A stretch of DNA of 20,916 nucleotides, from positions 1-20,916 of IMG/VR virus record IMGVR_UViG_3300022689_000478. One strand, 5' to 3'. The DNA comes from a virus. Shown in pieces: positions 1,656 through 11,869 of this stretch (the first letter of the stretch is position 1; the number at the start of each line of letters is the position of its first letter). The translations under genes and the position numbers were made by a program. Under the pieces are notes generated by a model that worked only from the letters and a program-made list of their open reading frames with translations, was not told the DNA's origin and made no database searches.

Positions 1656-2062
1656 AAAATAGCAGTTTATTAGATGATATGTGGGGAAACTTGCCGAATC
1701 AAAAAAGGAGTGATGACTCTCCTTTTAAGATATTGAATAAACAGTCTGACCTTTTTAATAAAAAGTATAAAGTTATAAAAACAAGATTAGAATTTGTTGA
1801 AGGTGCAAATAATACTCAGAGTGTTTTTAGATATAAGTTGATACTTTATACAGAATTTTTTTCTTTTGAAGTTCTTTATGTAGTATATGGATCTAATTCT
1901 TACCCTTGTCGATTAAAAATAAATAAAGTTATATATAGAGAAATATATGGAGATAAAAAGAATAGATTTATATACATTAGAGATGTGATAGAATTTAATA
2001 AAATACTAGAAAAGGTATTGACAAGTAGTTCAATACATGATATAATAAATACACTACTTTAG
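1640..2062 (+). CDS. Hypothetical protein, 140 aa
   Basis: No family is recognised. The protein has a polar N-terminus with a run resembling a linker (residues 1-40) and then alternating hydrophobic and charged stretches that suggest a small beta-rich domain (VFRYKLILY, FSFEVLYVVYG, CRLKINKVIYREIYG). There is no signal peptide or membrane segment. Two in-frame starts are close together, ATG 1640 and ATG 1649; neither has a strong ribosome binding site, and both overlap the DUF1643 end, so coupled translation is likely. The final 45 bases contain the consensus promoter for the RNA array downstream, so this coding end doubles as regulatory sequence. Confidence 0.55.
   Translation: MGKMVKNSSLLDDMWGNLPNQKRSDDSPFKILNKQSDLFNKKYKVIKTRLEFVEGANNTQSVFRYKLILYTEFFSFEVLYVVYGSNSYPCRLKINKVIYREIYGDKKNRFIYIRDVIEFNKILEKVLTSSSIHDIINTLL
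2018..2046 (+). promoter_or_regulatory. Consensus sigma-70-type promoter for the Y RNA/tRNA/Ro60 unit
   Basis: TTGACA at 2018-2023 and TATAAT at 2041-2046 are both perfect matches to the housekeeping hexamers and are exactly 17 nt apart. Transcription would start near 2053, a few bases before the first stem of the RNA array at 2061. The promoter sits inside the 3' end of the upstream coding region. Confidence 0.8.
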
Positions 2063-2138
2063 TGAGCCGTAGTGAGAAGGTTATCAGAAGATTATTTTAA
2101 TTTAATTTGTTTTCACCTTCTCACGCTATTTGCTCACT
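2061..2138 (+). ncRNA. Y RNA-like element 1 of 3
   Basis: The outer stem pairs AGTGAGC (2061-2067) with GCTCACT (2132-2138). The inner stem pairs GTGAGAAGGT (2072-2081) with ACCTTCTCAC (2115-2124). Between the stems are CGTA on the 5' side and GCTATTT on the 3' side, an asymmetric bulge. The 5' strand reads CCG, then the inner stem, then GGTTATC at the loop entrance; the 3' strand has TTTG at the bulge. This order (CCG bulge, GGUUAUC, UUG) is that of Ro60-binding Y RNAs as I remember them from vertebrates, and a Ro60 gene lies 800 bases downstream. The loop of about 33 nt is AT-rich. It is probably transcribed from the promoter at 2018-2046. Sequence and pairing are seen; Ro binding is inferred. 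Confidence 0.75.
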
Positions 2139-2154
2139 TCATATTAGAAAATAA

Positions 2155-2222
2155 TAATGAACCGAAGATAGAAGGTTATCTCCCAATTAAGATATCAAGC
2201 TTCTATCAATACTTGTTCATTA
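2155..2222 (+). ncRNA. Y RNA-like element 2 of 3
   Basis: The outer stem pairs TAATGAAC (2155-2162) with GTTCATTA (2215-2222); the inner stem pairs GATAGAAG (2167-2174) with CTTCTATC (2200-2207). The joining segments are CGAA and AATACTT. The unpaired signature is kept (CCGAA, GGTTATC at 2174-2180, ACTTG at 2211-2215) while both stems differ in sequence from elements 1 and 3 yet still pair, which is covariation within the array. A further short pairing of TATC (2177-2180) with GATA (2191-2194) is possible in the loop. This copy has the bulge closest to the animal Y RNA pattern CCGA...CUUG. Confidence 0.73.
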
Positions 2223-2228
2223 AAGAAC

Positions 2229-2304
2229 AAGTGAGCCGAGTTTATAAGGTTATCAGTAACTAATCCGGTTTCTATATTCACCTTATAAAAATATTTGCTC
2301 ACTT
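2229..2304 (+). ncRNA. Y RNA-like element 3 of 3
   Basis: The outer stem pairs AAGTGAGC (2229-2236) with GCTCACTT (2297-2304); the inner stem pairs TTTATAAGGT (2241-2250) with ACCTTATAAA (2280-2289). The joining segments are CGAG and AATATTT. GGTTATCAG opens the loop as in element 1. The inner stem sequence is quite different from the other two copies but fully paired. The element ends only 7 nt before the first base of the tRNA, so RNase P cutting at the tRNA 5' end would also form the 3' end of this RNA. Confidence 0.75.
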
Positions 2305-2950: not shown

Positions 2951-4534
2951 ATGGATTATAAATCATTAGGAAAAAGAGCCGAAAAAACTAATCAAAAAAT
3001 TCCTTGGATGAATGCTGTAAAGAATGACGAAGGCGGTTATTCTTTTTTAAATGATAAATGGTATTTATTGACGAAGTTTTTAATACTTGGTACTGCTAGT
3101 AATACTTTTTATTCTGATTCTTGTAAACTAACGCAAGAAGCATTTGAAAATATTAAAGAATGTATTAAAGAAGACGGAGTAAGAGTTGTACAAGAGACTC
3201 TTGAAGTTAGTTTATCTGGGAGAAATGTACATAGCGATACTTGTTTATTTGTACTAGCTCTATGTTTAGATTCAAAATTATCAAATAAAAGCACCGTACA
3301 ATTTGCAAAAAATTCTATAAATAGTATTGTTAGAACAGGTTCACACTTGTTCAGATTTGTCGATATAGTATCCTCTTATAGAGGCTGGGGTAGGGCTTTA
3401 AAGAACGGTGTCGCTAATTGGTACACAAGTAAGAATGTCGATGATTTAGCGTATCAAGTGGTTAAATATCAACAGAGGTACGGATATAGTCATAGAGATC
3501 TTCTTCGTCTTTCTCATCCAGTAAGTGAAGAGCATAACGAGTTATTTAAGTATATTCTAAAAAAAGATGATGTACAAATCGAAAATCTTCCGAGTATAAT
3601 TCAAGCATTTGAAGCTATTAAAGACGAAAATAGAGACGAAAGTCCTTTGTATTTAATTGAAAAATATAGAATGCCTAGAGAAGCTATTCCAACTCAAATG
3701 TTAAAAATATCGGAAGTATGGGAGTCTATGCTTAAAGTGGGAATGCCGATGGGAGCACTAATTAGAAACATTAATGCAATGTCAAGAATTCCTGGTCTTA
3801 TAGAAGATTTTGGTTCCCAGGCATATAAATACTTGATCGATAGTTTGAATAACGAATCTGCTTTAAGGAGATCAAGGGTACATCCTATAGAAATACTTAA
3901 AGCTTACGTTACTATACAAAACACATTTCATTCAAGAACAAGAGATTTTGATACAAGAAAAAATATACTTGATGCTTTAAATAAAGCTTTTTTCAAAAGT
4001 CTTGGTAATATTGAACCTTCAGGAAAAAGTATTTTTATTGCTGTTGATGTAAGTGGATCAATGTCATTTGATCAAAATAAACAATTAGGTAATATACAAA
4101 CAAGTGCTTTAGCTATGATGCTTGCTTATATTCATGTAGCTACAGAAAGGTATGTATATACCACTAAATTTAATAATCAAACATCTAAGTTAGATATTTC
4201 GAGGTATAATAGTATTGATCAGATTATAGAATATGCAAGACAGGTATGTCATGGAAGTACTGATGTAGCTTCTCCTATTAACTATGCTGTTGAAAATAAT
4301 ATAAGGGCAGATGGTATTATTATTTATACAGACCATCAAACATACGCGGGTAATAATTATCCAGAACAAGCTTATAGAGAGTATTTAAGAAAAGTTAATA
4401 GTAATGCAAAATTGGCATATGTAAGCATGGCTTATAATAAATATCAGTCGCATATAAGTAATCCTCTTGCTATGGATTTTATAGGAGTGGACACTAGTAC
4501 TCCTATTGCTATAACGGAATTTCTTAAAATGTAA
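2951..4534 (+). CDS. Ro60/Rsr-like TROVE domain protein
   Basis: At 527 residues this is a full-length Ro60 homologue. Residues about 15-345 form the TROVE ring of helical repeats; recognisable parts are the start (KTNQKIPWMNAVKNDEGGY), FLILGTASNTFY, RGWGRALKNGVANWY and YGYSHRDLLRLSHP. Residues about 355-527 are a von Willebrand A-like domain with an intact MIDAS: DVSGS at 366-370, GSTD near 436-439 and YTDHQ near 457-461. Ro60 proteins bind misfolded or structured small RNAs in the central hole and Y RNAs on the outer surface; in bacteria they act in stress survival and, with PNPase, in structured-RNA decay. The start has an AAGGTGG binding site. The Y RNA-like array upstream in the same direction strongly supports a working Ro/Y pair. 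What it does for a phage is not known. Confidence 0.93.
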   Translation: MDYKSLGKRAEKTNQKIPWMNAVKNDEGGYSFLNDKWYLLTKFLILGTASNTFYSDSCKLTQEAFENIKECIKEDGVRVVQETLEVSLSGRNVHSDTCLFVLALCLDSKLSNKSTVQFAKNSINSIVRTGSHLFRFVDIVSSYRGWGRALKNGVANWYTSKNVDDLAYQVVKYQQRYGYSHRDLLRLSHPVSEEHNELFKYILKKDDVQIENLPSIIQAFEAIKDENRDESPLYLIEKYRMPREAIPTQMLKISEVWESMLKVGMPMGALIRNINAMSRIPGLIEDFGSQAYKYLIDSLNNESALRRSRVHPIEILKAYVTIQNTFHSRTRDFDTRKNILDALNKAFFKSLGNIEPSGKSIFIAVDVSGSMSFDQNKQLGNIQTSALAMMLAYIHVATERYVYTTKFNNQTSKLDISRYNSIDQIIEYARQVCHGSTDVASPINYAVENNIRADGIIIYTDHQTYAGNNYPEQAYREYLRKVNSNAKLAYVSMAYNKYQSHISNPLAMDFIGVDTSTPIAITEFLKM

Positions 4535-4543
4535 GGTAAAGTT

Positions 4544-5029
4544 ATGTTACTTCATGAAAACGAAAATTTTTATAAAAGTGCTTCTGAAGAAGTCCTCGAT
4601 TTTTCGGGGACTTCTTTTATTAAAATATCAAAAGATATGTATTCTATAATGCAAAAATATAATACGAGGTATATCACGTCAAGACATGCAGGCTATAATT
4701 TAAACATAATCTATATAAATGCTAAATTAACAGGAAATAAGAGAAGTCTATTCATGATTAATTCTTTTATTAAAGATACGAATAATACAATGATAGATTC
4801 TATAGAATCAGATATTATTATTCCTGGAAAAGTAATACAAGTACCTCGTTATCAATTTATCAAAGTTAGCTATGTTGATAAAAATAATAAAAGAATGTCT
4901 ATAGAATTAAGCGGATTTTACTCCTGTATCTATCAAAAATGTGAAGATATACTGCAAGGAAGATTTCTTGATGATCGGTACAGAGAAATTTATGAAGGTA
5001 ATTATCTTATGGAACAATGGAGTGATTAA
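4544..5029 (+). CDS. Hypothetical protein, 161 aa, with terminator-like hairpin in its 5' end
   Basis: No family is recognised. The protein is rich in Ile, Tyr and Ser, without a clear signal peptide or membrane span, and has a possible beta-rich middle (residues 60-125). ATG 4544 has a plausible AAGGT ribosome binding site in the intergenic gap after Ro60. Codons 15-25 contain a 13-bp hairpin followed by TTTT, so transcripts from upstream may stop inside this gene. A later start at ATG 4637 would avoid the hairpin but has no good binding site. Its last base is the A of the nrdJ start codon, so translation of the two is coupled. Confidence 0.5.
   Translation: MLLHENENFYKSASEEVLDFSGTSFIKISKDMYSIMQKYNTRYITSRHAGYNLNIIYINAKLTGNKRSLFMINSFIKDTNNTMIDSIESDIIIPGKVIQVPRYQFIKVSYVDKNNKRMSIELSGFYSCIYQKCEDILQGRFLDDRYREIYEGNYLMEQWSD
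4587..4618 (+). terminator. Strong intrinsic terminator-like hairpin after Ro60
   Basis: AAGAAGTCC (4587-4595) pairs with GGACTTCTT (4608-4616), and the pairing continues inward (TCGA with TCGG, one G-U) to a TTTT loop at 4600-4603, giving 13 pairs. A TTTT run follows at 4615-4618, partly within the stem. It is 52 bases after the Ro60 stop and would end the Y RNA/tRNA/Ro60 transcript, although it lies within the next reading frame. Confidence 0.65.
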
Positions 5030-5847
5030 TGGATTATATTACAGAAAAGTATGCAAATGAGTATACAAATCCTCCTTTTGGGGGTAATGGATTAGGAGAA
5101 TTTGTATATTACCGTACATATTCTCGTTATAACGAAAAAAAAGGTAAAAGAGAAGAATGGAAGGATACTTGTAGAAGAACAGTGAATTATTCTATGAGTT
5201 TTTATAGTGGTTATAAAGATAATAAAGAAGAAGAAGCAAAAGATTTATTTCAGCATCTTTTTGAAATGAAAACATTTACCGCTGGTAGAACTTTGTGGAT
5301 AGGAGGGACCGAAGCCGCAAAAAGAAATCCTCTCGCCAACTTTAACTGTGCTTTTATTGTTATCGATTCAATGAAATCTTTTGAAGAACTTTTTCATCTT
5401 TTATTAGTAGGTGCAGGAGTAGGATTTAGAGTACTTGAAAAAGATATTAGTAAATTACCAGAAATTAATGATAAAATAGCATTAGCTAATAAACCTTATC
5501 ATGGTAAAAGAAAAGAAGAACGTATTGAAGAAACAATGGCATTCGAGGAAGACGGGAACTACTATATAGTAGTAGGTGATAGTAAAAAAGGGTGGACACA
5601 AGCACTTTCTCATTACTTAAATGCGATACAAAGACAGGATCTTGAAACTATATTAGTAAATTATGATAGTGTAAGACCAAAAGGAGAAATGCTTAAAACA
5701 TTTGGCGGGAGATCTTCAGGACATGAAGCCCTTCGTGATATGTTTAAAGGGATACATAGAGTTTTAAAACATAAAGGAAGCTTTCTTACTTCTATCAAGT
5801 GTTTAGATATAGCTAATATTATCGGATATTACGTAGTTGTTGGCGGT
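5029..5847 (+). CDS. nrdJ: Class II (B12-dependent) ribonucleotide reductase, exon 1
   Basis: These 273 codons are the N-terminal part of an adenosylcobalamin-dependent ribonucleoside-triphosphate reductase of the monomeric Lactobacillus type, which makes dNTPs for phage replication. Recognisable parts are YYRTYSRY, TAGRTLWIGGTEAAKR, the NCAFIVID segment (residues 104-111) with one of the redox-active cysteines, GAGVGFRV, VVGDSKKGW and the end IIGYYVVVGG. The family continues VRRTAEI, and those residues are found again at 6482, so an intron interrupts here. The exon ends GGCGGT, which pairs with GCCGCC in the intron (5862-5867) to form P1 with the expected U-G at the splice site. Unspliced reading stops a few codons later at 5856. 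The three exons join in frame to 688 residues; the Lactobacillus enzyme has about 740. Confidence 0.92.
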
Positions 5848-6481
5848 AGAGTTTAACTTATGCCGCCGTTAAATTGGGAGAATTGCTGGAAGGCTAAGGG
5901 ATTTTTATATCCTATGCTAATCAGCAGCCGAGCTTTAGGAATCGACAATTTTGTACTAAAGAAGGTTCAGAGACTAGAGAATGAAGAATGTCGTACTAAT
6001 AATTTCTCATTAGCACCCAATACAAGGAATTTATGATACTAAAAATATTAAATAAAAAAGAAGAAAATTTACAGACAAGTATAGCTTATTTCAATAATCT
6101 TTCAGAATTTTATCAATATATAAACGAAAGTGAAGTAGATGAATTAAATATTTTATTTTATTACGTAGATCTAGTTTATATAAAAGATAATATTTATTTA
6201 AAATGTTCTATAGATGAACGTGATAATTACATCTGTGAATACAATGTAAAAGAAAGATATAATTTTACCTACAAAGAAGATGATCCAAGAAAATGTCTAA
6301 GAATAACATTTTTAAAAATAGAATCAATATTATTAGGAGAAGAAAAATTATATAATGATATAAAATTTTTCGATAGTGCTTCATGGGTAGCTCTTTTTAT
6401 TATTGCTATAATTATTGCTATTTTTAGTATAATATACTTGTAAAGATATAGTCCGATCCTGGTGGAAACATCAGAAAATAG
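5848..6481 (+). mobile_element. Group I intron 1 in nrdJ
   Basis: This 634-nt intron has the conserved group I core: P element AATTGCTGGAAGG (5881-5893), Q element AATCAGCAGCC (5919-5929), R element GTTCAGAGACTA (5965-5976) and S element AAGATATAGTCC (6443-6454). P1 forms between exon GGCGGT and intron GCCGCC. The intron ends with G at 6481, and removing it restores VVVGG-VRRT. An ORF fills the space between R and S, and its stop codon abuts S. It self-splices and needs a guanosine cofactor, as known for the class. The core resembles phage group IA introns such as T4 td. Confidence 0.9.
6033..6443 (+). CDS. Intron 1-encoded small membrane protein, not a homing endonuclease
   Basis: The ORF sits in the peripheral loop between the R and S elements, the usual place for a homing endonuclease gene. 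The 136-residue product shows no LAGLIDADG, GIY-YIG, HNH or His-Cys signature. Residues 1-112 are soluble and rich in Asn, Tyr, Asp and Glu. The last 20 or so residues (SWVALFIIAIIIAIFSIIYL) are a hydrophobic segment ending the protein, so it could be tail-anchored in the membrane. ATG 6033 has an AAGGA ribosome binding site. It may be a cargo gene that replaced or never was an endonuclease. I recognise no family. Confidence 0.6.
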   Translation: MILKILNKKEENLQTSIAYFNNLSEFYQYINESEVDELNILFYYVDLVYIKDNIYLKCSIDERDNYICEYNVKERYNFTYKEDDPRKCLRITFLKIESILLGEEKLYNDIKFFDSASWVALFIIAIIIAIFSIIYL

Positions 6482-6685
6482 GTAAGAAGAACTAGTGAAA
6501 TGTGTATTTTTGATACTTATGATCAAGAAATACTAGAAGCAAAGCATGACCTTTTCAAAGAAGGTTCAAACAACTACGGTAAATATTGGAGAATGATGTC
6601 AAATAATTCTGTTATGTTTTTTGAAAAACCTTCAAAAGAGAAACTTATGAAATTAGCAGAAAAGATAAAAAACAGTGGTGAGCCT
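6482..6685 (+). CDS. nrdJ: nrdJ exon 2
   Basis: These 68 codons begin VRRTSEMCIFDTYD and continue KYWRMMSNNSVMF to KIKNSGEP. In class II reductases the order is GGVRRTAEI ... NNS ... GEPGF, so this fragment fits exactly between exons 1 and 3. It has no start of its own: the ATG at 6500 is an internal methionine in this stretch (SEMCIF). The end at CCT 6683-6685 pairs through GCCT with intron GGGC (6699-6702) to make P1 of intron 2. Confidence 0.9.
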
Positions 6686-7477
6686 ATACCAATAAACCGG
6701 GCCGTGTATTTGTAAAAATACATGTAAAACTAACCTAAAAACGGTGAAAACTCGAAAGAATAACACCGTGCTAACTCCTTAGTGAGCTGTGTAGAGACTA
6801 TGGTAATGGAGAAAATAATGAATAGAAAAGACTTAACAAAATATATATTTGCTTTTACTTTAGGAGACGGTTATTTATCTAAAGTAGAAAAAAAAGAAAA
6901 TAGTTTTTATGGGATTAAACAAGTAGATACTCATAAAGATTATCTTGAATTTCAAAAAGAGGTATTAAGTAGTATAAGTGATGTAAAAATATCTTATAGA
7001 AATCCTTATAAGGATAAAAGAGGTTTTAATGTACAAGGACAGTTTTCTTTACAAACAGGCAGGCATCCTATATACACAAAAATGAGAAGAAGAATTTACT
7101 ATAATGGAATAAAATCTATAAGTTATCATGACTTAAAACTATTTGATTGGGAATGTTTAGCTATCTTTTTTATGGATGACGGCTGGATGGAAAAAAGAAA
7201 AGACGGGTATAAAAGAATCGGTATCGCTACACATTCTTTTACATTTGGAGATAACATTCTACTAAAAAAAGCAATAGAAGAAAAAACAGGAATAAGATTT
7301 GGGATATTTAAACATAAGCTGGCTTCCGGTAACTATAAGTTTTATTTACGTACCTCGAAGTCAGAATCTGAAAGATTTATAGAAGGAGTTTATCCTTTCT
7401 TATTTAAAAGTTTTCATTATAAAATTACCGAACGGTTAGCTCCTAGTAATTAGGATGATGATATAGTCCATATAAAG
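6686..7477 (+). mobile_element. Group I intron 2 in nrdJ, carrying a homing endonuclease gene
   Basis: This 792-nt intron has td-like core segments: AAACGGTGAAAACTC from 6738, ACACCGTGCTAA further on, R-like GTGTAGAGACTA (6789-6800) and S GATATAGTCC (7460-7469). It ends with G at 7477, and removal restores the GEP-GFIN sequence of the reductase. The endonuclease gene lies between R and S and stops just before S. Together with intron 1 this makes two introns in one essential gene, at conserved sites, as is common for phage reductases. Confidence 0.88.
6818..7453 (+). CDS. LAGLIDADG homing endonuclease encoded in intron 2
   Basis: Starting at ATG 6818 the product is about 211 residues. Two LAGLIDADG-type helices are present: IFAFTLGDGYL near its N-terminus and LAIFFMDDGWM in the middle, with acidic residues at both active sites (GD and DD), as in the LAGLIDADG_2-like intron enzymes. 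Two copies in one chain fit a monomer that cuts a long asymmetric site at the intronless nrdJ exon junction and so spreads the intron. GGAG at 6808-6811 is a good binding site for ATG 6818. Upstream in-frame starts (GTG 6782, ATG 6800, ATG 6806) exist, but GTG 6782 and the sequence after it overlap the intron R element. The enzyme looks intact, in contrast with the decayed one in the terminase intein. Confidence 0.88.
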   Translation: MNRKDLTKYIFAFTLGDGYLSKVEKKENSFYGIKQVDTHKDYLEFQKEVLSSISDVKISYRNPYKDKRGFNVQGQFSLQTGRHPIYTKMRRRIYYNGIKSISYHDLKLFDWECLAIFFMDDGWMEKRKDGYKRIGIATHSFTFGDNILLKKAIEEKTGIRFGIFKHKLASGNYKFYLRTSKSESERFIEGVYPFLFKSFHYKITERLAPSN

Positions 7478-8521
7478 GGTTTTATAAACTATAAAGCTGC
7501 TAATCAAAGAAGACCCTGGTTTGAAGGTTTAAATCCATGTGCAGAAATACTTCTTTCAAGTAGAGGAGTTTGTAATTTATGCGATGTAAATGTTAAAGCA
7601 TTTGTCAAGAATGGTGAATTAGATCTCGAAGGTTTAAAACACGCAATTGAACTCGCAGTAAAACATGGAATTCGTATGACAAATATTGAACTAGAATTAG
7701 AAAACTGGGATACTATACAAAAAAGAGATCGTCTTGTTGGAGTAGGATTATTTGGTTGGATGGATGCTGTAGATTCTTTGCAGTTAAGTGAATTAGAAGA
7801 AGAAGAACTTCTTAAAATTTTAAAATCTGTAGCAGTTAAAACAACAGAGGATTATTCATTTGAAATGAGAATTCCTAAACCTTTATTAGTTACTACTATG
7901 AAACCAGGAGGTACCATACCTCAATTACCTACTGTTTCTAGTAGTAGTTATAGAGCTTTTGCTCCTTTTTATATCCGAAGAGTTAGGATAAGTTCAAGTG
8001 ATCCTCTTGCTAAAGTAGCAAGTAGAAAAGGTTATCCTATATATCCTGAAACAGGACAGGGTCCAGATGTAGAATCTTTTAATACATTAACTAAATTTGA
8101 ACAATTTGAAGTTTTAAAGGATTCTTCAACTTGGGTTATAGAATTTCCTGTTAAGACAGAATCAACAAAAAGAGCTAAAGATGAATCAGCGATTGATCAG
8201 TTAAAAAGGTATATAAGATTCCAGAAATACTGGTCAGATCATAACACCTCTTCCACAATTTATGTAGAAGATGATGAGTGGGATCAAGTGGTAGATTACA
8301 TTTATGATAACTGGGATGACTACGTAGCTGTTGCTTTTCTTCCTAAAAGAGAGGGTGTGTATCCTCTTATGCCTTATGAAGAGATTTCTGAAGAAGAGTA
8401 TAACAGAAGAGTAGAAGAAATCTCCCAGGATGATTTATATGAATTACTCACGAGATCAGAGTATTCAATATCTGAAATAATAGATTCAGAGTGTGAATCA
8501 GGAATTTGTCCAGTTAGATAA
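7478..8521 (+). CDS. nrdJ: nrdJ exon 3
   Basis: These 347 codons and the stop complete the reductase. GFIN follows the GEP of exon 2. The NPCAEILLSSRGVCNLCDVN region (7532-7591) contains the thiyl-radical cysteine, the neighbouring catalytic glutamate and the second redox cysteine. TTMKPGGTIPQLPTVSSS is the phosphate-binding loop of the family, and the C-terminus CESGIC carries the shuttle cysteine pair that passes electrons from thioredoxin. All key cysteines of the class are therefore present across the three exons. A reading frame beginning at ATG 7676 is only the inner part of this exon. A terminator follows 5 nt after the stop. Confidence 0.93.
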   Translation, partial: GFINYKAANQRRPWFEGLNPCAEILLSSRGVCNLCDVNVKAFVKNGELDLEGLKHAIELAVKHGIRMTNIELELENWDTIQKRDRLVGVGLFGWMDAVDSLQLSELEEEELLKILKSVAVKTTEDYSFEMRIPKPLLVTTMKPGGTIPQLPTVSSSSYRAFAPFYIRRVRISSSDPLAKVASRKGYPIYPETGQGPDVESFNTLTKFEQFEVLKDSSTWVIEFPVKTESTKRAKDESAIDQLKRYIRFQKYWSDHNTSSTIYVEDDEWDQVVDYIYDNWDDYVAVAFLPKREGVYPLMPYEEISEEEYNRRVEEISQDDLYELLTRSEYSISEIIDSECESGICPVR

Positions 8522-9274: not shown

Positions 9275-11869
9275 ATGACACTTATAGAAAAATTACCTAG
9301 AGAAGAATTAGACTTACTAGAAGTTGTAGAAGACCCAATCTGGTTCGGTGAATTTTTACGATCTACACATGACGCTTCGTCTATACCACAAGAATGGCCC
9401 TCTTCTCCATTCCATTATCGCTGGTATCAGAAAGATATACTATCCGATAAAAATCCTTATATATCCTTAACAGGAGGTAGAGCAATAGGAAAATGTTCAC
9501 CTTTATCTGAGAGAGTATATACGTATCCTTACGGTTATATGAAATTGATGGATTTATATAGCAAAGATAATAAACATAATTTAGCCATATTTTATGTAAG
9601 AGATCGTGAAGATAATTTTATACAAAGAAGAGGGGAAATACACTACAATTCGAAGGAATATGTTTATGAGGTTAAAACTGAATCTAATCACAAATTTAAA
9701 GGTACAGCGGAACATCCAATATGGACACCGAATGATTATATAAACATAGAGAATTTAGAAGAGGGTATGGAAGTAGGTGTTGCAGCATTATTACCTCATC
9801 AATCTGAACAATCCTTGTTATCATGGGAAGAATTGAGATGGTTGGGTATGGTATGTGCTAAAAAAGGTTTAGGTGGAGAAACACCTATTGTTTTAAAAAA
9901 TTACCGGCAAAAAGAAGAATTAGAAATAATAGCTGAATTTTTTGGAAGTAATTTACATTACATAACTCCAGATGTTGTAAAAATGGTAAGAAGGATAGCA
10001 GAGGTAGGGAGTTATGGAAGAAGACTTTATACAATGCTCGGAATACCTATGTCAAATATTATACGGGAATTGGGATTTCTGATGATTCCTCCTATACTAA
10101 AAGCTGAAAAATTAAGTAATCTTAAAATATTTATGGAATCTTTTTTATCACATAATGCAGAAATATCCGAAAAAGGAATAACTATCAATTTTACAAATGG
10201 TAGGTTTGCAGAGGATATACAAGAAATATTATTGAGATTTGGTATAGAAACAAAAATAACAGAAATAAAACCACGGGTCTATTATAAATCTGGCGAGTAT
10301 ATTATGAAGGTATCAACTTTTGAAGACTATTGTAGAGTTTTTCATACTTTTTCAATACCTGGTATTGAAGCAGTCAATGTACCAGATCCAGGAATTAAAA
10401 CAGAGGCGATAAAATATGAAAAAATAATTTCTATAGAAAGAAGTAAGACAAAGTTATTTACATATGCTGTAAGTATACCGATCTATAATAACTACATATC
10501 TGGTAACTTTTTTGTACACAATTCTTTAGTTATAGAAGATTCAATGGTCTATGATGCTGTAAATTCAGATTTAGTATTTCCAGATACAAAAGAACAGTTA
10601 TTAGCAACTCCAAATAATGCTCAATTAACTCCTATCCAAAATAGACTATTTTTACGATTTGTCAGTAGTAAATTCTTATCTTCTTTTCTTGGTCATATTA
10701 ATAAATCGAGAGGTACTATGGAATTTCCTATATATAGTGGCTCTGTTTATATTTTAAATATGAGAATAGCTGGAAAAACAGGAGAAACAAACTTTATTGG
10801 ACTTCATTTACCTAGAATGGTTATAGATGAAAGTCAAATATTTCCTATGTCGGCACTTATACAAATGCAACCAGCATTCAATAGCTGGGAAAGAAATACA
10901 AGGCAAATGTTTTGCGGCGTCCCTAATGGAATGAGAGATGGAAATGTTTTATTCTATGTTGATCAAAGATCTAAAAAATTTAAAAAATATAGAGTACCAT
11001 CACACGAAAATCCTTTCTTTACGGAAGAGGCAAATATAGATTCACTAATACAGTATGGAGGAGAAGACTCTGAAGATTATCTACATTTAGTATTAGGGAG
11101 ACACGGAAATCCAGTATTTCATATCATTCCCAGAGATAAAATATTTACTGAACCTTTTGATTTTTATAATGGAAGATATACTCAAGAAGAGGTTAATAGT
11201 AAAATAAGTTATAAACAGATATTAGACAGACCTTCTGTTTATAAAAAACCTGATAAGTTAGTAGCTTCGTTAGATACAGGATATGTGGACCCTACTATTT
11301 TACAAATATTTGCCTGGTATAGTGATGAAAAAAAATGGAGAGTATTATCAAGATACCAGCTTATAAGAATACCTTTTCCAAAGCAAGCAGAAATAATAGA
11401 CTGGATAGACAGTTATTACGACTTCGATTATATCGTTATCGACCATGGTGCAGGTGGTGGAGGTATTGGATTAAGTCAAGATCTTTTATCTGCAAAATAT
11501 GGAACCAGGTATAAAGATAAAGTTCACGGAGTTCAATTTCAGCAATTGATACCATTTGGAGAAGAAGATGGTGTAGAAATGAAATTACTAGCTAAATCTT
11601 TCGCTGGATCAGAATTAGCAAAAATGATAACTTCAGGAGAAATAATCCTCAGTGAATTAGACAGGCAAGGTATAAGTCAACTCGAAAGAGTTTCTTATGC
11701 AAGATCTTCCAGCGGAGTTAATCAATATTTTATTTTATCTGAAAACGGTAAAGGTAAAAGTGGAGATGATCATATATTTGCTTGTTATATTGTATTTATC
11801 ATAAGTCTACAAACAGTAAATAAACAAAAAAAGAAAAGAAAGAAATTGTTTACCGCAAAATGGATATAG
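9275..11869 (+). CDS. terL: Large terminase subunit (TerL) interrupted by an intein
   Basis: TerL is the ATPase and nuclease motor that packs DNA into the capsid. The 864-residue precursor contains a 343-residue intein, leaving a mature protein of about 521 residues. The Walker A loop GGRAIGK ends at residue 73 and its serine (S417 of the precursor) lies after the intein. Walker B is RMVIDES with D518-E519. The nuclease domain has acidic residues at SLDTGY (D667), VIDHGAGG (D723) and GDDH (D831/D832), the RNase H-like triad. The basic C-terminus (KQKKKRKKL) may touch DNA. GGAGG precedes the ATG. Until the intein splices itself out, the ATP site is split, so the motor cannot work. Confidence 0.92.
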   Translation: MTLIEKLPREELDLLEVVEDPIWFGEFLRSTHDASSIPQEWPSSPFHYRWYQKDILSDKNPYISLTGGRAIGKCSPLSERVYTYPYGYMKLMDLYSKDNKHNLAIFYVRDREDNFIQRRGEIHYNSKEYVYEVKTESNHKFKGTAEHPIWTPNDYINIENLEEGMEVGVAALLPHQSEQSLLSWEELRWLGMVCAKKGLGGETPIVLKNYRQKEELEIIAEFFGSNLHYITPDVVKMVRRIAEVGSYGRRLYTMLGIPMSNIIRELGFLMIPPILKAEKLSNLKIFMESFLSHNAEISEKGITINFTNGRFAEDIQEILLRFGIETKITEIKPRVYYKSGEYIMKVSTFEDYCRVFHTFSIPGIEAVNVPDPGIKTEAIKYEKIISIERSKTKLFTYAVSIPIYNNYISGNFFVHNSLVIEDSMVYDAVNSDLVFPDTKEQLLATPNNAQLTPIQNRLFLRFVSSKFLSSFLGHINKSRGTMEFPIYSGSVYILNMRIAGKTGETNFIGLHLPRMVIDESQIFPMSALIQMQPAFNSWERNTRQMFCGVPNGMRDGNVLFYVDQRSKKFKKYRVPSHENPFFTEEANIDSLIQYGGEDSEDYLHLVLGRHGNPVFHIIPRDKIFTEPFDFYNGRYTQEEVNSKISYKQILDRPSVYKKPDKLVASLDTGYVDPTILQIFAWYSDEKKWRVLSRYQLIRIPFPKQAEIIDWIDSYYDFDYIVIDHGAGGGGIGLSQDLLSAKYGTRYKDKVHGVQFQQLIPFGEEDGVEMKLLAKSFAGSELAKMITSGEIILSELDRQGISQLERVSYARSSSGVNQYFILSENGKGKSGDDHIFACYIVFIISLQTVNKQKKKRKKLFTAKWI
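9494..10522 (+). mobile_element. Intein in the TerL Walker A motif, with decayed LAGLIDADG domain
   Basis: The intein runs from Cys74 to Asn416 of the precursor. Splicing residues are all present: first residue Cys, block B GTAEHP (143-148, His147), block F YAVSIPIYNNYISG, C-terminal HN and following Ser. Joining the flanks gives GGRAIGK-S, a normal Walker A motif. The middle keeps the outline of a LAGLIDADG endonuclease, but the first motif reads LRWLGMVCAKKGL (187-199), with lysines where GDG is usual, and the second reads FMESFLSHNAEI (286-297), with SHN where DAD is usual. The metal-binding acids are lost at both sites, so it should splice but not home. Confidence 0.9.

Follow-up and report, generated by a model that had tools for sequence, protein, structure and literature searches.

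The window, by which we mean the whole stretch of DNA analysed here (20,916 nt), is the IMG/VR virus record IMGVR_UViG_3300022689_000478, a 20.9 kb virus sequence which is probably a fragment and whose portal only distantly resembles the portal of Bacillus phage G. Three hairpin units lie head to tail behind a predicted promoter, and they are followed by a tRNA gene and by a gene for Ro60 (Rsr), a protein known from animals as an autoantigen. The features are listed below, with scores from R1, a covariance model built on other phages.

2018-2046, + strand: predicted sigma-70/sigma-A promoter, TTGACA-17-TATAAT with TG before the -10 element, 12/12 consensus positions
2061-2138, + strand: candidate Y RNA unit 1 (78 nt), R1 29.6 bits, E 1.1e-5, fold z -6.0
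2068-2069, 2079-2085 and 2130-2132, + strand: bulge CG, GGTTATC and TTG of unit 1
2155-2222, + strand: candidate Y RNA unit 2 (68 nt), R1 39.9 bits, E 2.7e-8, fold z -4.2
2163-2164, 2174-2180 and 2213-2215, + strand: bulge CG, GGTTATC and TTG of unit 2
2229-2304, + strand: candidate Y RNA unit 3 (76 nt), R1 40.2 bits, E 2.2e-8, fold z -4.6
2237-2238, 2248-2254 and 2295-2297, + strand: bulge CG, GGTTATC and TTG of unit 3
2312-2388, + strand: tRNA-Arg(UCU) found by ARAGORN, Rfam tRNA 77.8 bits, CCA encoded
2951-4534, + strand: Ro60 (Rsr) protein, 527 aa, TROVE and vWA_Ro60 domains, Pfam E 1e-32 and 8e-28

The gaps between the units are 16 and 6 nt, and tRNA-Arg(UCU) starts 8 nt after unit 3. An ORF of 150 aa that matches PDDEXK_3 lies between tRNA-Arg and the Ro60 gene, and a peptide deformylase-like gene (4544-5029) lies directly 3' of it. 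A DUF1643 gene at 1137-1655 is also near Ro60, as it is on the Bosea plasmid (L129:5115-5642); it was not found in the other Ro loci searched. Further downstream, a class II ribonucleotide reductase is seemingly split over 5029-8521 (N-terminal part 5029-5856, probable C-terminal part 7676-8521), with a LAGLIDADG endonuclease gene at 6782-7453 between the two parts. The large ORF ahead of the portal gene (9275-11869) probably encodes the terminase large subunit, and it contains an intein, indicated by Intein_splicing and LAGLIDADG_3 matches. The region after the tRNA (2392-2447) was considered as a fourth unit and rejected, as its fold z was -1.7 and R1 gave no match; it holds a weak hairpin, GCAGAGGAAGA...TCTTCCTTTGC, that is not a Y unit.

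As the initial annotation had described, three consecutive stem-bulge-stem units of 68-78 nt are present, and when folded as stand-alone RNAs they were far more stable than shuffled sequences (z scores as listed, 0/200 shuffles as stable). Each unit is made of a lower helix, an internal loop, an upper helix and an apical loop. The motifs described as fixed, CCG, GGTTATC and TTG, occur in all three units, and the window has CCGN9GGTTATC at precisely three places (2067, 2162 and 2236, all on the + strand), compared with 0.02 per window expected from dinucleotide shuffles. The lower helices have 7-8 bp, are closed by a C-G pair and are followed by an unpaired C at 2068, 2163 and 2237; it is the second C of CCG that stays unpaired, since the 3' TTG provides a G partner for the first. 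On the 3' side the units carry an unpaired stretch with TT at its end, and folding leaves the exact pairing across it ambiguous. The apical loops past UUAUC measure 30, 18 and 26 nt in units 1, 2 and 3. Both stems had been said to vary in sequence while staying paired. This holds for the upper stems, which differ in each of the three units, but not fully for the lower stems, since GTGAGC/GCTCAC is identical in units 1 and 3 and the only compensatory lower-stem change inside the window is that of unit 2 (AATGAAC/GTTCATT).

The predicted promoter, a perfect sigma-70 match abutting unit 1, is an addition to the initial annotation. It lies inside the 3' end of ORF 1640-2062, with 14 nt between the end of the promoter and unit 1, and transcription is predicted to start at about 2053, approximately 7 nt ahead of unit 1 and thus a few bases upstream of where its pairing begins. 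Perfect promoter matches are expected 0.05 times per window in whole-window shuffles. A 12/12 match was also seen ahead of the units at nearly the same place in one other locus (L186), and 11/12 matches in two more (L189 and L134). In most of the other loci tested no promoter was found ahead of the units, and therefore we do not claim a shared promoter design. The tRNA-Arg is probably on the same transcript as the units. When the joined transcript (2053-2391) was folded, the structure with all three Y stems lay 2.4 kcal/mol above the predicted minimum, in which pairings to the neighbouring units compete with the lower stem of unit 2. This suggested that unit 2 may need processing or Ro60 for its folding. 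Within 2205-2236, two other partners are available to the 3' arm of unit 2, namely the linker plus the start of unit 3 (CTTGTTC ATTAAA GAACAAG) or the 5' arm of unit 1. Such predicted alternative pairing might mark a site of processing or allow the RNA to switch from one fold to another.

Units of the form CCG...CGGTTATC were found just upstream of the Ro gene in the Ro loci of the mycobacteriophage Sparky, the Gordonia phage BearBQ, the Streptomyces phage Tomas and elsewhere; part of them have a tRNA-like T arm and the rest lack it. An alignment (A2) and the covariance model R1 were made from 34 minimal units of Ro loci in other phages, with the window excluded; R1 partly scores sequence, because its training units were found with the CCG...TTATC motif. 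In the window, the only R1 matches with E below 0.5 were the three units. Across 92 Ro loci it gave 112 matches in 71 loci, including the training units and not counting as independent events because many loci are related; all 112 were on the Ro strand, and 92/112 lay within 1 kb upstream. No R1 match was seen in 21/92 Ro loci, some of which have little flank. A loose motif scan of viral contigs and a genome scan yielded mostly chance matches, which then served R1 as negative controls. Specificity was assessed on stretches gathered by sequence motif alone, blind to the neighbouring genes. Ro60 was present within the stored stretch for 32/47 R1-positive and 0/186 R1-negative stretches; searching the whole records raised the first number from 32 to 42 of 47, with some stretches sharing a record, and the remaining 5/47 come from possibly fragmentary records. 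In dozens of other phages, the Ro60 gene has close relatives of these RNAs next to it. Minimal Y units beside Ro60 were also noticed in two contigs of Verrucomicrobia and Armatimonadetes bins (L242 and L283, the latter with four R1 matches), which are possibly cellular or prophage.

These data bear on two other readings of the array. The hairpins could be elements unrelated to Y RNAs, such as hairpins for processing a tRNA array, antisense regulators or inverted repeats that arose by chance. Phage tRNA arrays can hold processing hairpins and this array adjoins a tRNA, but the motif count far above expectation, the matches to an independent model and the strong association with Ro60 make this extremely improbable. 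Alternatively, the array could be a cis-acting leader, whose hairpins are bound by Ro60 for self-regulation of its own operon and from which free Y RNAs are not made. Its position upstream and on the Ro60 strand, here and in the 92 matches within 1 kb, would fit such a leader. However, the tRNA gene and the 150-aa ORF separate the array from Ro60, the promoter sits at the array itself, and the units are downstream of Ro60 in three other loci (L189, L164 and L159), so we regard it as very unlikely.

In alignment A2, the structure had 83% paired cells compared with 58% in shuffles, and the covariation score was 0.554 compared with 0.194. Because the A2 units had been picked with the help of pairing, the arms were redefined from sequence anchors alone, in 50 units from 32 loci, and the 3' sides were exchanged between units. 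With their own arms, the units formed 6.08 of 8 pairs in the lower stem, compared with 4.46 after swapping (sd 0.145), and 7.10 pairs in the upper stem, compared with 5.96 (sd 0.098); 0/1000 shuffles were as high for either stem. A structure search that ignored UUAUC recovered CG-bulge hairpins upstream of Ro60 in 24/71 candidates, compared with 1/39 on the antisense strand. UUAUC was present in 15 of these 24, and most of the others had a variant such as UUACC or UUAAC. As the motif was recovered by a search blind to it, UUAUC is conserved and not merely selected by the pattern.

The protein named as Ro60 in the initial annotation was confirmed, as it carries TROVE and vWA_Ro60 domains and matched solved Ro60/Rsr structures in the PDB over nearly its full length (E 2.5e-71 to 1.4e-66). 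Its K172, R176 and H189 align with K170, R174 and H187 of Xenopus Ro60 and are invariant in 13 sequences of phage and plasmid homologues. H187 of Ro60 contacts Y RNA and is reported to be essential for this contact (PMC4030889), and H187S abolished the binding of mouse Y3 (PMC11277228). Ro60 homologues were found in 344/50,697 phage records. A search of viral contigs with the window Ro60 protein alone returned no close relatives, and an alignment query was needed. Two Ro60 frames contain one in-frame TGA each (G010:C1:26600-28159 in the record of L331, and G004:C1:53903-55456 in the record of L390), which might reflect recoding, gene decay or an artefact of sequencing, and the Ro60 gene at G006:C1:6043-7660 (record of L339) is in two pieces, broken between the TROVE and vWA parts.

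We compared the units with curated RNA families, as the initial annotation had proposed. Rfam RF00019 (Y_RNA) gave no match in the window up to E 10. The best YrlA (RF02553) match reached 10.7 bits and fell inside the tRNA at 2361-2377, leaving the units unmatched. The units are therefore not members of those two curated families. In an Rfam scan of the window for another RNA family, only the tRNA passed. The best sub-threshold match near the units was wcaG (21.2 bits, cut-off 42), dismissed as a chance-level match that covers parts of two units. Human hY4 starts GGCTGGTCCGATGGTAGTGGGTTATC and has the same CCG-N9-GGTTATC spacing as the window units (PMC5763536). The bulged C9 is the primary Ro60 contact in Y RNA, and the unpaired C of the window units occupies the same position after a lower helix of ~7 bp (PMC4030889). 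UUAUC is common to vertebrate Y RNAs and nematode sbRNAs (PMC4726728). The claim of a Y RNA array beside Ro60 is thus supported by all the computational tests, namely the independent R1 model, the co-occurrence with Ro60, the covariation, the hY4 spacing, the retained H189 and the lack of a tRNA-like module. The units have the Y RNA-defining features that could be checked.

The absence of a YrlA-type tRNA-like module, also claimed at the outset, was upheld, as ARAGORN and the YrlA model found only the separate tRNA-Arg. This bears on whether the units tether Ro60 to a nuclease in a phage RNA-decay machine, comparable to the RYPER complex of D. radiodurans, where Y RNA links Rsr with PNPase (PMC4726728, PMC8058203). 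RYPER is the only worked-out bacterial role of Ro60 and Y RNA (PMC4726728, PMC8058203), and in related phages long-loop units make up about half of those linked to Ro (50 short-loop and 50 long-loop units in Ro loci by the arm-pairing screen), many of them with a T-arm/D-arm module. The three window units, however, are without such a module and their loops have just 18-30 nt, although PNPase might make contacts outside the tRNA module; we judge a tether unlikely. Since they are without the tRNA-like module, the units are most likely gates or regulators, like the small-loop hY5, and not YrlA-type adaptors.

We consider it very likely that the three units encode short Y RNAs which act as RNA partners of the phage's own Ro60 and gate it. 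From the strong host-type promoter at 2018-2046, transcription would begin at unit 1 and continue across the three Y units and tRNA-Arg, and cleavage of the transcript would then release the individual RNAs, RNase P at the tRNA 5' end being one candidate enzyme. Each unit would offer Ro60 its classical site, that is, a C-G-closed lower helix of 7-8 bp, an unpaired C and an upper helix with GGUUAUC at its junction. Once bound, the Y RNA would cover the outer face of the Ro60 ring, where it could protect, place and gate the protein and thereby decide which structured, damaged or misfolded RNAs enter the ring. The sites for Y RNA and for misfolded RNA on Ro60 overlap (PMC4030889, PMC4726728). We infer such gating in RNA quality control during infection by carrying the role over from D. 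radiodurans and animals; a phage Ro60 whose function has been tested was not found. With a loop this small, space may remain for a substrate, as has been reported of hY5 and 5S rRNA (PMC11277228). In Salmonella, Ro60 and Y RNAs sit within a tRNA-repair operon (PMC7790460), which makes a link of the window RNAs to tRNA damage plausible. It could also be proposed that such minimal Y RNAs form interchangeable sets, in which a constant core with variable stems and loops acts as a guide panel that aims a single Ro60 at different host or phage RNAs while infection proceeds, but we think this distinctly unlikely.

Bacterial Y RNAs have been described mainly as tRNA mimics. The window, like many Ro60 phages, has in tandem an animal-type core without the mimic, with the same bulged C, the same GGUUAUC and the spacing of hY4. 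It therefore provides a simple natural system for asking what Ro60-Y RNA particles do and what the conserved UUAUC is for, and it bears on how animal and bacterial Y RNAs are related. Moreover, R1 annotates RNA genes beside phage Ro60 that Rfam misses.

In the Listeria phage CKA15, three highly transcribed non-coding regions have been proposed as Y RNAs, and like the window units they have strong sigma-A promoters and lie near tRNA genes and upstream of an Rsr-like protein (PMC12282133). In the related Listeria phage P100, gp165 (L442 33571-35091, minus strand), which was equated with that protein from its size and position, matched DUF2828/DUF7788 and not Ro60, and an R1 search of the region gave no Y-like unit. 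These results weaken the published suggestion for that phage, and identity of the CKA15/P100 RNAs with the window units was not supported.

Compared with animal Y RNAs (hY1, hY3, hY4 and hY5; nematode CeY and sbRNAs), the window units share the C-G-closed lower helix, the unpaired C, the upper helix, UUAUC at the loop entrance and the lack of a tRNA module, with small loops as in hY5. They are shorter (68-78 nt compared with 84-112 nt) and, unlike the animal RNAs, lie in phage DNA, in tandem behind a bacterial promoter, and are not matched by RF00019. With YrlA (RF02553) and the D. radiodurans Y RNA they have in common that they are bacterial-type genes beside the Ro60 (Rsr) gene, and the same CCG...GGUUAUC core is found in tRNA-module units of Sparky, BearBQ and a Picosynechococcus plasmid; they differ in having no T-arm/D-arm module and no match to RF02553. 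In several loci (L123:2595, L125:2730, L133:2757 and others), the order within the tRNA-like module is T arm, acceptor, D arm, so that the module of phage Y RNAs resembles a circularly permuted tRNA with the Y helix in place of the anticodon stem.

Y RNAs in mycobacteriophages have been reported earlier, as cited in PMC12282133. Minimal Ro-linked units occur in Sparky (L123:2736-2804), BearBQ (L125:2870-2943) and Tomas (L132:2527-2593), and tandem runs of at least three minimal units (3-5 units) in five loci (L172, L189, L392, L361 and L375). The minimal units of other Ro60 phages share the model, the motif and the genomic place with those of the window, and several are in tandem. The view that a tandem array without the tRNA module is unusual thus has to be given up as far as Ro60 phages are concerned. 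Many other Ro60 phages mix minimal and tRNA-module units, whereas the window is distinctive in having only minimal units, with a perfect promoter match ahead of them and a true tRNA directly behind.
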